From contig NZ_SZZH01000001.1 of assembly GCF_005298075.1 (NCBI RefSeq), positions 744,001 through 808,000 of the forward strand: a stretch of 64,000 bases of DNA, in the 5' to 3' direction. Positions 56,830 through 61,666 of the stretch are shown piece by piece; position 1 is the stretch's first letter, and every line of letters starts with the position of its first letter. The translations under genes were made by a program, and so were the position numbers. The notes below the pieces were generated by a model that saw only the letters and a list, made by a program, of their open reading frames with translations, was not told where the DNA came from and made no database searches. This DNA is from Nakamurella flava. Its GTDB lineage: Bacteria > Actinomycetota > Actinomycetes > Mycobacteriales > Nakamurellaceae.

Positions 56830-57366
56830 TCAGCGGTTGTTCTCGTGCTGGATGGCGTCGATCCCGACGGCGGTGGCGATGGCCAGCACGGGATCGAGTC
56901 CGTCGACCTGGACGGCGAAGGCGTCGGTGATCGAGATCCAGCGCCGGGTGGTCGTCCCGACGGTGGCGCCGGCCCGCTCGAAGCTGAACTCGTGGTTAAG
57001 CATGTCGCCGTGGATCTCGACGTCGTCGCCGCCGTCGCCTTCGATCGCCCAGGTCTCGTGGACCGGGGCGAAGCCGGTCTTACGGATGGTCACGTCGGCC
57101 CGGCCCGGTCGCGACAGGGTGAACGTCGGGTGCACGTGCATCGGCGGGCGGGCGAGGTCGGCGACCTCGGCCCCGTCCGGGGTGAACATGCTCCACTTCT
57201 GGCCGACCAGCGTGAAGTGGCCCTTGAACCGGTAGGCCTCCTGGCCGGCGGCGTCGTCGACCCGGTAGCCCTCGATCGTGCCCAGGCGACGGTGCACGAC
57301 GAAGGTGCCGGGCGGCAGCGCGGTGGGGGTCGACTCGGCCGACGACGAGGAATGCGAGTGGAACAC
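56830..57366 (-). CDS. LURP-one/tubby-like family protein
   Basis: The protein has 178 residues and is mostly beta strands: RRLGTIEGYRVDDAAGQEAYRFKGHFTLVGQKWSMFTPDGAEVADLAR, ADVTIRKTGFAPVHETWAIEG, then EIHGDMLNHEFSFERAGATVGTTTRRWISITDAFAVQVDGLDPVLAIATAVGIDAI. The pattern matches the LURP-one-related (DUF567, tubby/scramblase-like) family. The role in bacteria is unknown. It diverges from the J-domain operon. Confidence 0.82.
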   Translation of the reverse strand: MFHSHSSSSAESTPTALPPGTFVVHRRLGTIEGYRVDDAAGQEAYRFKGHFTLVGQKWSMFTPDGAEVADLARPPMHVHPTFTLSRPGRADVTIRKTGFAPVHETWAIEGDGGDDVEIHGDMLNHEFSFERAGATVGTTTRRWISITDAFAVQVDGLDPVLAIATAVGIDAIQHENNR

Positions 57367-57497: not shown

Positions 57498-57531
57498 TTG
57501 CGATGCACAGTTTGAGTCACTTAGACTCAAA
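57498..57531 (+). promoter_or_regulatory. Leaderless promoter overlapped by a HAIR-type HspR operator
   Basis: The promoter is TTGCGA (57498-57503), 18 bp, TAGACT (57522-57527); +1 falls at the ATG (57534). TTGAGT-N7-ACTCAA (57512-57530) covers the -10 box. It equals the HspR-associated inverted repeat CTTGAGT-N7-ACTCAAG except for its outermost base pair (T/A instead of C/G). Confidence 0.8.
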
Positions 57532-57533
57532 TC

Positions 57534-58592
57534 ATGCTCACGACGACCGAGGCGATCGACCGGATCACCGAAGCCCGTACCGCGGCCGATCTCTTCGGTG
57601 ACACCGCGACGTCCAACGATCCGGTGCGCGCCGCCCGCCGGCGGTTCCACGGTCTGCTGCAACTGGTCCACCCGGACCGCGCTCCGGGGGATCTCCGGGC
57701 GGCCGACGCGGCCATGCGGCTGACCGCGCTCTACGACGCCTGGACCGCTCCGGCGGCCGGGGCGCCGAGCGGAGTGGTGCTCCAGACCCGTTCGGCCGAC
57801 TACGAACTCGGTGACCTGATCGGGCGAGGGAGCATCGCCAACCTGTACCGGGCCCGCGTCCTGGATGGGACGGTCGGCAGCGGGCGTGCGGTGGTCGTCA
57901 AGCTGCCGCGAGACCCGCGCGCCAACGGGCTCATCGAGGCCGACTTCGAGACCCTGAGCGCCCTCGGGCGTCTGACGTCGGTGGCGGACTCCGCCTGGCT
58001 GGCCGGGTACTACCCGTCCCTGGTCGATCGCGGCGTCCACCTCGGTGCGGACGGCGTAGAGCGCTCGTTCACCGTGCAGGAACCGCTGGGTGGTCCCGGA
58101 TGGGCGACCCTCGCCCAGATCCACGCCGCCCATCCCGACGGCATCGACGGCGACGACTACGCCTGGATGCACCGGCGCCTGCTGTGGGCTCTGGCCGGGC
58201 TGCATCGCACCGGGCGAGTGCACGGCGCCGTCCACCCCGACAACGTGCTGGTCTGCTCCGACCCGCGCACCGTCGTCCTGCTGGGCCACTCGTTCTCGGT
58301 GCGGGCCGGGCAAGTGCTGAACGCCACCGTCGATGGTGCCGCCTACCCGCCGGAGGCGCTGGCCGGGCGTCCGGTCAGCGGCGAGAGCGACGTGTTCCAG
58401 GCCCACCGCCTGATGCTGACGATGCTCGGCGACCGGGCCACCCCGGCCGAGATCTGCTTCGCCCAGGGGTGTCTGCAGGACGCCGCGGCGCTACGCCCGA
58501 CCGCGGCCGACTTGATCACGGAATTTGACGATTTCATCGACCACACCTACGGGCCGCGGCGGTTCCGACCCTTCCCGCTGCCCAATAGCTGA
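57534..58592 (+). CDS. J-domain fused to a protein pseudokinase
   Basis: The protein has 352 residues. Residues 18-70 (ADLFGDTATSNDPVRAARRRFHGLLQLVHPDRAPGDLRAADAAMRLTALYDAW) form a J-domain with the HPD triad H46-P47-D48. Residues 88-340 are kinase-like: glycine loop IGRGSIANLYRA and ATP-site Lys in VVVK (K123). The catalytic HRD is HGA (H230-A232), and the DFG Asp is missing (LLGHSF). N237 remains. It is therefore a pseudokinase, not an active kinase. The HPD J-domain should stimulate DnaK. The transcript is leaderless from the HAIR-controlled promoter. It heads the operon with the vWA and PurA-like genes. Confidence 0.85.
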   Translation: MLTTTEAIDRITEARTAADLFGDTATSNDPVRAARRRFHGLLQLVHPDRAPGDLRAADAAMRLTALYDAWTAPAAGAPSGVVLQTRSADYELGDLIGRGSIANLYRARVLDGTVGSGRAVVVKLPRDPRANGLIEADFETLSALGRLTSVADSAWLAGYYPSLVDRGVHLGADGVERSFTVQEPLGGPGWATLAQIHAAHPDGIDGDDYAWMHRRLLWALAGLHRTGRVHGAVHPDNVLVCSDPRTVVLLGHSFSVRAGQVLNATVDGAAYPPEALAGRPVSGESDVFQAHRLMLTMLGDRATPAEICFAQGCLQDAAALRPTAADLITEFDDFIDHTYGPRRFRPFPLPNS

Positions 58593-58633
58593 CCTCTGTT
58601 CCTCACCCACCACCCTGAAAGGGAGTGCCCGTC

Positions 58634-59707
58634 ATGGGAAACGGCACCTGGTCCGACCACACCTACAACGCCGCCCGCACGTTCCGGGCCGCCACCGGCG
58701 CCGCCGACTTCGGCTACACCGCGGCGACCCGGTCGCAGCACCCGGACACCTGGAAGGCGCACCCCACGCTCGACCCGCTGAACGTGAGTGCCCGCGAAAG
58801 CCGCGACTCCGACGAGCACCCGGACGCGCTGCCGGTCGCCGTGCTGTTCGACGTCACCGGCTCGATGGGGCAGGTGCCGCGCATCCTGCAGACCAAGCTG
58901 GGCAAGCTGCACGGCCTGATCCAGCGCAAGGGCTACGCCCGTGACCCGCAGATCCTGTTCGGCGGGATCGGCGATGCCGACACCGATCGGGTGCCGCTGC
59001 AGGTCGGGCAATTCGAGAGCGACAACCGGATGGACGAGCAGCTCCGCACCATCTTCCTGGAAGGTGGTGGTGGCGGGCAGAAGTCGGAGTCCTACGAGCT
59101 GGCCGCGTACTTCATGGCTCGGCACATCAGGACGGACGCCTGGGAGAAGCGGCAGCGCAAGGGCTACCTGTTCATCATCGGCGACGAGTTCAACAAGCCG
59201 CGGCTGGCCGCCCGACACATCCGCCGGGTTATCGGCGACGACGTCCGCCTGGACGTCTCGGTCGAGTCGGTCTACCGCGAGCTGAGCCGGCAGTGGAACG
59301 TGTTCTTCATCCTGCCCCGGCAGAGTGCCTACTTCGACGACCCGGCAATCATCGATCACTGGCGGAAACTGTTGGGGCAGAACGCGATGAAGCTCGACGA
59401 CCCGGCCGCCGTGTGCGAGTTGATCGCCCTGACCATCGGTCTCGGTGAGGATCGGGTCGACGTCGCCGACGGACTGGCCGATCTCGCCGACGTCGGATCC
59501 GGCGCGGAGGCGCAGTCGGTCCGTCGCGCGCTGGAGGGCGCGGCTGACGGTCGGAACCGGCGGACGTCGGCCGATGACGACGACGCGCTCCGCGCCCGCA
59601 ACGGCGGGTGGGGGCGGCTGCGCCGGCTCGCGCACGGCACGGTCGCCATCCGGGGTGCCGGGACACCGGCCGGGTTGGACGACGCCGGCGGGGTGACGTT
59701 CCGATGA
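58634..59707 (+). CDS. von Willebrand A-like protein, metal-site DxTxS
   Basis: The protein has 357 residues. The MIDAS-type motif is VLFDVTGSMGQ (D73-V-T75-G-S77) and later strands are QILFGGIGDAD and KGYLFIIGDEFNKPR. ESYELAAYFMARH adds a conserved-looking helix. The N-terminal 60 residues (TYNAARTFRAATGAADFGYT) and the C-terminal low-complexity tail are not assigned. vWA proteins usually bring partner proteins together. The ATG at 58634 follows GAAAGGGAG; the earlier GTG at 58625 is less likely. The stop overlaps the PurA-like start (ATGA). Confidence 0.82.
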   Translation: MGNGTWSDHTYNAARTFRAATGAADFGYTAATRSQHPDTWKAHPTLDPLNVSARESRDSDEHPDALPVAVLFDVTGSMGQVPRILQTKLGKLHGLIQRKGYARDPQILFGGIGDADTDRVPLQVGQFESDNRMDEQLRTIFLEGGGGGQKSESYELAAYFMARHIRTDAWEKRQRKGYLFIIGDEFNKPRLAARHIRRVIGDDVRLDVSVESVYRELSRQWNVFFILPRQSAYFDDPAIIDHWRKLLGQNAMKLDDPAAVCELIALTIGLGEDRVDVADGLADLADVGSGAEAQSVRRALEGAADGRNRRTSADDDDALRARNGGWGRLRRLAHGTVAIRGAGTPAGLDDAGGVTFR

Positions 59708-61029
59708 CCGCCGCCCTGCCGTGGGCGGACGGCCGCCATGTCGTGGTGGTGGATCTCGGGTTCGGCGACGCCGGCAAGGGCGCCACCGTCGACTGGCTGT
59801 GCTCGCCGCGGTCGGGGCTCGACGTCAGTGCGGTCGTCCGCTTCAACGGCGGCGCTCAGGCCGCCCACAACGTGGTCGTCGGCGGACGGCACCACACGTT
59901 CCGGCAGTTCGGGTCGGGCACCTTCAGCGGCGTCCGCACCCTGCTCTCCCGGTACGTGCTGGTCGACCCGTACGCGCTGGCCCAGGAATCGGATCAACTC
60001 GCCGCCCTCGGCGTCGACCGTCCGCTCGATTTGATCGAGATCCACCGTGACGCGTTGATCACCACCCCACTGCACCGCCTGGCCAACCGGGCCCGGGAGG
60101 ACGCCCGCGGTACCGCCCGGCATGGGTCCTGCGGGACGGGCGTGGGAGAGACCGTCGCCTACGCGCTCGACCACCCGGACGCGTTGCGGGTGCGGGACTG
60201 CGCGGACGGGGCGCTGGTCAACCGCAAGCTGGTGGCGCTCCTCGAGTACTACCGGCCGTTGCTGGCCGCCGACGGCGCGCTGCCGGCGGGAGCCGGGCCG
60301 GGCGCGATCGCCGACATGGTGGGGACGTACCTGGCCTTCGCGCAGGCGGTGGAGGTCGTGGGTGACGAACGGCTGGCCCAGTTGGCCGCGGCGGGCACTC
60401 TGGTGTTCGAGGGGGCGCAGGGGGTGCTGCTCGACGAGTGGCACGGCTTCCACCCGCACACCACCTGGTCGACCACCACGCCGGACAACGCCCTGACCTT
60501 GCTGGCCGAGATCGACGCGAGGGGTGTCGTTCTCGGGGTGACGCGCACCTACAGCACCCGGCACGGCCATGGCCCGTTCCCGTCGGTGGACGTCGGTCTG
60601 GACGCGCTGCTGCCGGAGCCGCACAACGGCGCCGGCCGCTACCAGGGCGAGTTCCGGGTGGGTCACCTCGATCTCCCGCTGCTGCACTACGCGGTGCAGG
60701 CCAGCCGACGGGTGGATGCGCTGGTGGTGAACCACCTGGACGCGGTCGACACCGCCGCGCTGCGGATGGTCGACGGCCACGTCGACGCGGACGGTCGCGC
60801 GATGACAGCGCCGACCGCCGCGTTCGACCACGACCTCGATCGTCAGCAGGCGCTGACCGACGCGTTCAGCGAGGCCGGTGTCGTGACCCGACCGGTGGCC
60901 GGAGGGGCCGCCGTCCTGGCGGAGATCGAGACCGGACTGGGCCGCCCGGTGGTGCTGACCGCCGACGGCCCGGACCGGAGCGACCGTTCCGTCGTGAACA
61001 CCCACGGGACGGCCCAGCGGGCGGCCTGA
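59704..61029 (+). CDS. Adenylosuccinate synthetase (PurA) paralogue with altered loops
   Basis: The protein has 441 residues. PurA motifs are VVVVDLGFGDAGKGATVDWL (D22, K25 in the base/P-loop), AVVRFNGGAQAAHNVVV (H55), HGSCGTGVGETVAY, VFEGAQGVLLDEWHG and RTYSTRHGHGPFPSVDVG, then NHLDAVDT. The Asp-binding loop of true PurA (TTGRPRR) is missing; RYQGEFRVGHLD stands there. The enzyme is thus expected to join an acceptor to a nucleotide in the PurA manner but with another substrate. It overlaps the vWA gene by 4 bp and converges with an NrtR-like gene 4 bp away. Confidence 0.85.
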   Translation: MTAALPWADGRHVVVVDLGFGDAGKGATVDWLCSPRSGLDVSAVVRFNGGAQAAHNVVVGGRHHTFRQFGSGTFSGVRTLLSRYVLVDPYALAQESDQLAALGVDRPLDLIEIHRDALITTPLHRLANRAREDARGTARHGSCGTGVGETVAYALDHPDALRVRDCADGALVNRKLVALLEYYRPLLAADGALPAGAGPGAIADMVGTYLAFAQAVEVVGDERLAQLAAAGTLVFEGAQGVLLDEWHGFHPHTTWSTTTPDNALTLLAEIDARGVVLGVTRTYSTRHGHGPFPSVDVGLDALLPEPHNGAGRYQGEFRVGHLDLPLLHYAVQASRRVDALVVNHLDAVDTAALRMVDGHVDADGRAMTAPTAAFDHDLDRQQALTDAFSEAGVVTRPVAGGAAVLAEIETGLGRPVVLTADGPDRSDRSVVNTHGTAQRAA

Positions 61030-61033
61030 GGCG

Positions 61034-61666
61034 TCAGGTCCACACCCACGGCTGATACGGCCGTCCAGGCCCACCGGACCGGACGGCCGCCTCGGCCTGC
61101 TGCAGACCGGGCATGCTCCGCAGCATCCGGTTGAGGTTGCCGCGGTCCGGGCGCGAGCCGCTCAACGCTTCGGCCAGCGCCAGCGCCCGGGCGGTACTGA
61201 ACTCCTCGCCCAGGATGGCGCGGGTGAAGGTCCGGTCCCGCCAGAGCAGACCGGCCAGCGCGGCGCGGGCGACCTCGAGGATGGGACCGTGGTCGAAGGC
61301 CAGGTGCGGTACCTGGCCGAACGCGAACCAGGACGCGGTGTCGACCGGCGCGGCCGGGTCGACCACCGCCCACATGGACAGTGAGAGGGTCGGGCCCCGG
61401 GGGTCGCGCAGGGGCTCGTCGAAGGTGGCCAGCTGCCCGACCCCCCGGATGTGCTCGGGCGGCAGGCCGACCTTGCCGGTGATCGCGCGCAGGGCGGCGT
61501 CGTACAGGCGCTCCCCGCGACCGAGGAGCACCCCGGGCAGAGCCAGCTCGCCCGCGAACGGTTCCCGGTCCCGCCGGATGATCGCCACGCTCGGTGTTGC
61601 CTCGGTCACCGCGAACCGTACGGCGACGACGTCGACCGACACCATGGACGCCTCGGGCAGGGACAC
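61034..61666 (-). CDS. NrtR-like Nudix/winged-helix protein with degenerate Nudix box
   Basis: The protein has 210 residues. The Nudix region is VAIIRRDREPFAGELALPGVLLGRGERLYDAALRAITGKVGL. The box REUxEExGU is here RAITGKVGL (60-68), so all three catalytic Glu residues are gone. The C-terminal part (FTRAILGEEFSTARALALAEALSGSRPDRGNLNRMLRSMPGL) looks like the winged helix of NrtR regulators. It should act as a ligand-sensing transcription factor, not as a hydrolase. The GTG start is leaderless, six nt after TAGAAT. An ATG at 61645 is an alternative. Confidence 0.8.
   Translation of the reverse strand: MSLPEASMVSVDVVAVRFAVTEATPSVAIIRRDREPFAGELALPGVLLGRGERLYDAALRAITGKVGLPPEHIRGVGQLATFDEPLRDPRGPTLSLSMWAVVDPAAPVDTASWFAFGQVPHLAFDHGPILEVARAALAGLLWRDRTFTRAILGEEFSTARALALAEALSGSRPDRGNLNRMLRSMPGLQQAEAAVRSGGPGRPYQPWVWT

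Follow-up and report, generated by a model that had tools for sequence, protein, structure and literature searches.

Several described systems share parts with the locus reported here. PurZ and PurZ0 of the 2-aminoadenine phages are phage-encoded PurA paralogues, and in PurZ a serine replaces the catalytic Asp13 (PMC12884076). The Ter/TerY-P systems and other vWA-centred, nucleoside triphosphate-dependent conflict systems combine a vWA protein, a kinase-fold protein and a predicted nucleotide-type metabolite (PMC7159879, PMC7824862). Nudix or WYL regulators and vWA chaperones have been described in adenosine diphosphate (ADP)-ribose conflict systems (PMC9503650), and phage J-domain cochaperones have been proposed to recruit host Hsp70 (PMC7824862). 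The repressors NrtR and AraR consist of a degenerate Nudix domain and a winged helix, and they are found by the operon that they regulate, with a palindromic operator over its promoter. Here we report the analysis of a 64-kb stretch of Nakamurella flava DNA (hereafter the window), in which a J-domain/kinase-fold gene, a vWA gene and the gene of a PurA paralogue lie together on the plus strand next to a Nudix/winged-helix gene on the minus strand. The vWA and PurA-paralogue genes are the obligate core of a cassette that is found in bacteria as well as in phages.

Gene set and distribution of the cassette

The plus-strand trio starts with the gene of the J-domain pseudokinase (57534-58592; 352 residues, with the J-domain at residues 1-75 and the pseudokinase at about 82-339). 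It is followed by the vWA gene (58634-59707; 357 residues, with a Met-Gly start and the motifs DVTGS, GGGGGQxxESY and GDE) and by the gene of the PurA paralogue (59704-61029; 441 residues, with a predicted GTP-dependent (guanosine triphosphate-dependent) ligase core lacking the aspartate loop), the start codon of which overlaps the vWA stop codon (ATGA). The Nudix/winged-helix gene (61034-61666, minus strand; 210 residues, an NrtR-like dead Nudix protein) is convergent with the PurA-paralogue gene, leaving a gap of 4 bp between the gene ends. The first-pass annotation of the window, made by a model from the letters alone, had read a three-gene operon with a Nudix-like gene converging at 4 bp, and the coordinates agree with this: the kinase-like, vWA and PurA-paralogue genes are one transcription unit.

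The same annotation had suggested a check of co-occurrence, which we carried out with a vWA-based scan. The scan gave more than 386 genome matches and 416 viral matches. The 80 best matches of either kind were retrieved, and the gene content of 84 bacterial and 83 viral loci (167 altogether) was scored with hidden Markov models for the four families. The genes proved to be conserved together in bacteria and phages. All four are present in 62 of the bacterial loci, another 15 lack only the kinase and three lack only the Nudix gene, which is present in 79 of the 84. Among the viral loci, 59 carry kinase, vWA and PurA paralogue (one of these with a Nudix gene) and 23 carry vWA and PurA paralogue. 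The order kinase-vWA-PurA is held in nearly all loci, with locus L103, where the kinase lies 3' of the PurA paralogue, as the exception. Since the set is conserved in unrelated genomes, the cassette is not a chance arrangement.

The tightest association is that between the vWA gene and the PurA paralogue: of the 167 loci, 164 have the two side by side and at least 165 contain both. In one phage (L119) the PurA paralogue lies elsewhere on the contig, not beside the vWA gene; L079 is the sole judgeable locus without it, and L038 ends at a contig end and is uninformative. If L038 is therefore not scored as a failure, the pair is present in 166 of 167 records. The kinase is present in about 75% of the loci. 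When phages with no kinase at the locus were searched for one elsewhere, none was found in 15 of 16 records, the remaining record giving a weak match of J-domain size only. No gene fusions between cassette members were found among the homologues.

Bacterial carriers are actinobacteria and plasmids of alpha- and betaproteobacteria. Plasmids bearing the set or most of it come from Rhodococcus, Tsukamurella, Variovorax, Agrobacterium vitis, Acetobacter and Rhizobium leguminosarum. The spread is patchy, with four of 17 genomes of the genus and four of 391 good genomes in the phylum sample (about 1%) having the cassette. A plasmid of Rhodovulum sp. MB263 (L222:6101-9029) holds a decaying copy with the Nudix gene, a partial kinase and a vWA gene running into TonB-receptor-like sequence; no PurA is annotated adjacent to it. 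The copy of Nakamurella leprariae (L202) is kinase-less, with an operator 5' of the vWA gene and an open reading frame resembling ZapE-type cell-division ATPases just upstream. In the window itself, a divergent gene for a LURP-one-related (LOR) domain protein (56830-57366, minus strand) shares the intergenic region of the operon. It was considered as a fifth cassette member and rejected, as none of the other fetched loci contains a related gene.

A PurA paralogue without the aspartate loop

The PurA paralogue matches PF00709 with an E value of 1.1e-56 and misses the cut-off of the NCBIfam purA equivalog (107.7 versus 395.55 bits). A canonical PurA gene is located on another contig (C4) of the same genome, so the paralogue is not the enzyme of the purine pathway. 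A separate canonical PurA is also kept in the tested host genomes. In PurA, the residues N38, T129 and R143 contact inosine monophosphate (IMP) and D333 reads guanine. Mapping onto E. coli PurA numbering revealed that the paralogue retains D13 (D22 in the window protein), K16 (K25), H41 (H55), Q224 (Q239), T239 (T254) and D333 (D346), together with the C-terminal G-P. Over 164 homologous sequences, the equivalents of D13, K16, H41 and Q224 are found in 161-163, with Asp at position 13 in 162, and T239 and D333 are kept in nearly all.

Changes were found at the substrate contacts. At the IMP-contact positions, N38 is replaced by Q52, T129 by C143 (mostly Cys across the homologues) and V273 by H287, and R143 has no equivalent. 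The aspartate loop TTGRRRR reads YQGEF-R, introducing Y313, Q314 and E316 with R305 missing. These changes belong to the family: Q52 and H287 are each present in 160 of the 164 sequences, Q314 at the T301 position in 159 and a new Asn, N308, in 160. The residues N308, Q314 and R318 are newly invariant, and the equivalents of R143, R303 and R305 are gone. In PurA, R303 and the loop bind aspartate, with Val and R303 at the ribose (PMC8342488). Compared with PurA, the paralogue thus shares the fold, the GTP site D333 and the catalytic D13, K16, H41, Q224 and T239, but lacks the aspartate loop and the contacts to the phosphate and ribose of IMP, and is paired with a vWA gene. The kept catalytic residues and the changed IMP and aspartate contacts suggest that GTP activation of a 6-oxo purine would be kept and other substrates would be read. 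The paralogue is thus likely to be a ligase that depends on GTP but joins another pair of substrates. Membership in the PurZ family was ruled out on position 13, where Ser in PurZ stands against Asp here; the genes beside the paralogue are those of a vWA protein and a J-domain pseudokinase.

The vWA protein

No sequence match of the vWA protein was found in Pfam or the PDB. Its AlphaFold2 model has a predicted local distance difference test score (pLDDT) of 88, and Foldseek matched it to integrin-beta I domains (E 4.5e-6). The metal motif DVTGS is nearly invariant and D184 is present in the window protein, in keeping with a DxSxS-type site, and the vWA fold is confirmed by the model. Residues D73, T75, S77, D114, Q123, E128, the GGG at 146-148, E152, D168 and D184 are invariant or nearly so.

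The start of the protein is also fixed. Among 120 vWA sequences whose start is set by an in-frame upstream stop and by the lack of an alternative start codon, 119 begin with Met-Gly, mostly as MGx(G/S)xW; Gly2 is found in eight of 115 PurA paralogues. One might imagine that the PurA paralogue uses the vWA N-terminal Gly, with Met removed, as the amine instead of aspartate, resulting in N-terminal purinylation of the protein in phages and bacteria. This idea is prompted by the Met-Gly start, the loss of exactly the aspartate-binding residues and the obligate pairing of vWA and PurA paralogue, and we regard it as a long shot. A structural or metal-binding role of the vWA N terminus is the plainer reading.

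The J-domain pseudokinase

Pfam made no J-domain call in the single window protein, in which the HPD motif lies at residues 46-48. Profile comparison by hhalign, however, aligned the N terminus of the family with the two DnaJ proteins of the genome (96%, E 2.5e-9) and the family profile with its protein kinases (99.4%, E 6.6e-22). In the AlphaFold2 model (pLDDT 92.7) a helical domain at the N terminus is followed by a kinase fold, and the best Foldseek matches are PknB/FGFR2-type kinases. Of 126 homologues, about 120 retain HPD. The HRD motif reads HGA in the window, and its Asp is found in one of the 126 homologues, the other 125 having Ala, Gly, His or Ser. The VAIK Lys is present in 91 and the F-helix Asp in 125 of the 126. 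The first-pass annotation had described the kinase as lacking both the HRD and DFG Asp residues. The DFG Asp is indeed lost in the window, but as a family trait this does not hold, since 60 of the 126 homologues have Asp at that position. The other readings of that annotation on the proteins are borne out by the mapping and the models: the J-domain is fused to a pseudokinase without the HRD Asp, the vWA protein keeps its metal motif, the PurA paralogue keeps D22, K25 and H55 without the aspartate loop, and each gene is altered in a telling way. Like phage J-domain cochaperones, the family brings an HPD J-domain into phages; unlike them, the domain is fused to a pseudokinase and linked to a vWA protein and a PurA paralogue. 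On a Variovorax plasmid (L006), the kinase N terminus is a zinc-ribbon-like CxxC...CxxC segment that replaces the J-domain.

The Nudix protein and the operator

The best matches of the Nudix protein are AraR (over residues 15-193) and NrtR, and the NtrR cut-off is far missed (26.6 versus 400 bits). In the window protein R60 is kept and the Glu positions 61, 64 and 65 are Ala, Gly and Lys, in agreement with the earlier reading of an NrtR-like regulator without the catalytic Glu. This dead subtype, with A61, no Glu at 64 and K65, is dead in 33 of 33 loci. A second subtype is encoded upstream of the kinase in 48 loci and has, almost without exception, the catalytic Glu residues; different repeats of the GAG/CTC type were seen upstream in these loci.

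A palindrome, TTTGAGTC-N5-GACTCAAA (57511-57531, plus strand), precedes the operon and has no second exact copy in the 4.84-Mb genome. It contains the -10 box TAGACT (57522-57527), with the start codon 6 nucleotides (nt) 3' of it. By direct reading, a -35-like hexamer TTGCGA (57498-57503) lies 18 nt 5' of the -10 box; it was not called by a generic promoter scan. The palindrome aligns with an element in relatives with the dead-Nudix regulator, where 31 of 33 loci have TTT(T/G)AGTC-N5-GACT(A/C)AAA or a close form 5' of the first gene. Its distance from the start is 23-24 nt in kinase-first operons and 38-68 nt in those that begin with the vWA gene. A related palindrome is found at -195 in L013, and a congener (G013; L203:6410-6464) has two tandem palindromes (TTCTGGTC, TTATGGTC) instead of one 5' of the vWA gene. 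A TANNNT -10 box lies inside the palindrome in 29 of the 31 loci, with the ATG 6-7 nt 3' in kinase-first operons, and -35-like hexamers at a spacing of 16-19 nt occur in most relatives, many of them TTGACC or TTGACG. With the start codon 6-7 nt past the -10 box, the transcript is probably leaderless. On the simplest reading, the palindrome is a putative operator of the operon's own dead-Nudix protein. This arrangement resembles that of NrtR and AraR, but the operon is not one of nicotinamide adenine dinucleotide (NAD) or sugar metabolism, and the operator sequence is its own.

The palindrome had been read instead as a HAIR site that ties the operon to the DnaK-HspR circuit, making it heat-induced, with the J-domain feeding DnaK back onto HspR. 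The window site does agree with the HAIR consensus CTTGAGT-N7-ACTCAAG (PMC6102357) at 12 of 14 positions, and HAIR-like sites stand 5' of dnaK and clpB in this genome. The window winged helix is, moreover, closer to regulators with TTTTAGTC operators than to those with TTTGAGTC operators, which leaves room for another binder at the window site. Nevertheless, the palindrome is tied to this operon in the dead-Nudix loci, and about 20 of the 31 bear TTTTAGTC/GACTAAAA-type sites that are about 4 of 14 positions off HAIR. Within the genus the HAIR-like form is that of the window copy only; three congeners have the non-HAIR forms ATTTAGTC, TTCTAGTC and TTATGGTC/TTCTGGTC at the same place. Non-HAIR versions are also found in Nocardiaceae, and in all clades the operator is positioned over the -10 box. 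The palindrome thus tracks the dead Nudix protein, and since most relatives' palindromes do not match HAIR, HspR was rejected as the general regulator; the heat-shock reading as a whole is improbable. Additional control by HspR is possible in this particular strain, because the sites of dnaK and clpB have largely the same arms as the window site.

Phage copies and origin

The plus-strand proteins match phage families in PHROG: the kinase phrog_3043, the vWA protein phrog_2971 (E 5.9e-75) and the PurA paralogue phrog_1211. Searches by tblastn found all three in about 190 records of Bixzunavirus (cluster C1) mycobacteriophages, and vWA and PurA paralogue also in phages of Rhizobium (ten records) and Vibrio (six records). 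A C1 genome note lists the kinase, an 'HNH endonuclease' and a PurA-like gene (240, 241 and 243) as conserved in all C1 members (PMC9476963). Judged by position, gene 241 is the vWA gene, into which an intein or homing-endonuclease segment has been inserted. In gp247 of Mycobacterium phage Alice (L003:3930-5714) and in other C1 phages, such a segment interrupts the vWA gene precisely where the conserved motif KGY-(L)FIIGDE is encoded, and in some phage records the entire protein is called 'HNH endonuclease'. Near the PurA paralogue, an R2K-clade ATP-grasp gene is found in 16 viral loci (e.g. L122:7412-8185 and L125:3861-4487), and a gene for a HAD phosphatase of the 'Swiss army knife RNA repair' family lies upstream in 12. 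Such neighbours are compatible with chemistry on small molecules or nucleotides.

In a PurA tree of 116 sequences, all bacterial copies together with five phage sequences are nested in a wider phage diversity. The tree suggests that the bacterial cassette is likely to have come from phage, with the bacterial copies probably being a domesticated form with an added regulator. The first-pass annotation had missed this sharing with phages, as well as the obligate vWA-PurA core and the invariant Met-Gly start.

Proposed function and alternatives

We propose that the cassette encodes a ligase complex. At its core, a PurA-type enzyme would phosphorylate a purine-like substrate at its 6-oxo group at the expense of GTP and would then join the activated substrate to an amine to give a purine-type conjugate, the pair not being IMP and aspartate. 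The vWA protein would be the obligate metal-dependent partner, as scaffold, carrier or substrate. The J-domain pseudokinase may serve as an adaptor through which DnaK takes part in assembling the complex, and it perhaps binds a nucleotide, with no phosphorylation by the usual mechanism. In bacteria, the dead Nudix protein would repress the operon by covering the 21-bp operator on the -10 box, and would be released upon binding a nucleotide-type ligand. Large phages would use the same core. The gene set and its order, the residue changes and the operator with its promoter are read from the sequences, whereas the substrates, the formation of a complex, the recruitment of DnaK, the repression and the phage origin are inferred. 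We rate this proposal as a whole somewhat above an even chance. It retains from the first-pass annotation the nucleotide-related product, now in the form of a likely nucleotide-related ligase. Several points weigh against it. The kinase is not essential everywhere, as about one quarter of the loci lack it; the role of the Nudix protein is not uniform, because the dead subtype is downstream or convergent and the catalytic-motif subtype upstream; the PurA tree has moderate supports, some long branches and a moderately supported phage root; and the substrate change of the PurA paralogue is read from residues rather than from a solved structure, the AlphaFold2 models being those of the kinase and the vWA protein.

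Two other functions were weighed against the ligase proposal. In the one to which we give the smaller chance, and which we consider distinctly unlikely, the PurA paralogue would make a modified (deoxy)nucleotide for phage DNA in the manner of PurZ, the bacterial copies being remnants. Phage PurA paralogues are known to make 2-aminoadenine precursors (PMC8342488, PMC12884076), the PHROGs name for the family is '2-aminooxy adenylosuccinate synthetase', and the nearby R2K ATP-grasp ligase gene of 16 viral loci would suit such a pathway. However, the Ser of PurZ at position 13 contrasts with the conserved Asp here, and regulated chromosomal and plasmid copies fit poorly with a purely DNA-modifying role. 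The partners DatZ, MazZ, DutZ and DpoZ of PurZ phages were not seen among the conserved neighbours, although no family-level search for them was made. The other function is a nucleotide-signal conflict in defence or counter-defence, for which the NAD/ADP-ribose and Ter systems are the analogues. Here, the ligase would make or remove a signal nucleotide, the Nudix protein would sense it and the vWA protein would be a chaperone. The patchy spread and the carriage by plasmids and phages speak for it, as do the Nudix or WYL regulators and vWA chaperones of the ADP-ribose systems mentioned above; yet no conserved adjoining effector (nuclease, pore or NADase) was seen and lytic phages carry the core themselves, so that we regard it as unlikely, though a serious competitor. 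PADLOC profiles had no match to the vWA, PurA or Nudix protein and gave weak kinase-fold matches only for the J-domain pseudokinase, and membership in a catalogued anti-phage system was rejected on this basis. Compared with the Ter systems, no Ter domains occur in the window neighbourhood, and no mention of a PurA paralogue was found in the texts on Ter and vWA conflict systems (PMC7159879, PMC7824862).

No description of the cassette was found in the literature searched, which lay mostly outside subscription journals, so that an earlier description is possible; the first-pass annotation had likewise known of no system with this set. From the literature search and the failed membership tests, the cassette is apparently undescribed. 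It is widespread in phages and bacteria and has been masked by generic names such as kinase, hypothetical protein and adenylosuccinate synthetase, and a 'PurA' match in a phage should be treated with caution, as not all are host-like PurA or PurZ. The cassette raises three questions that can be tested directly: which substrates are joined by a PurA that has no aspartate site, what makes a vWA protein its constant companion, and what use a J-domain pseudokinase is to phages. The Bixzunavirus phages of Mycobacterium smegmatis provide a ready model for them.

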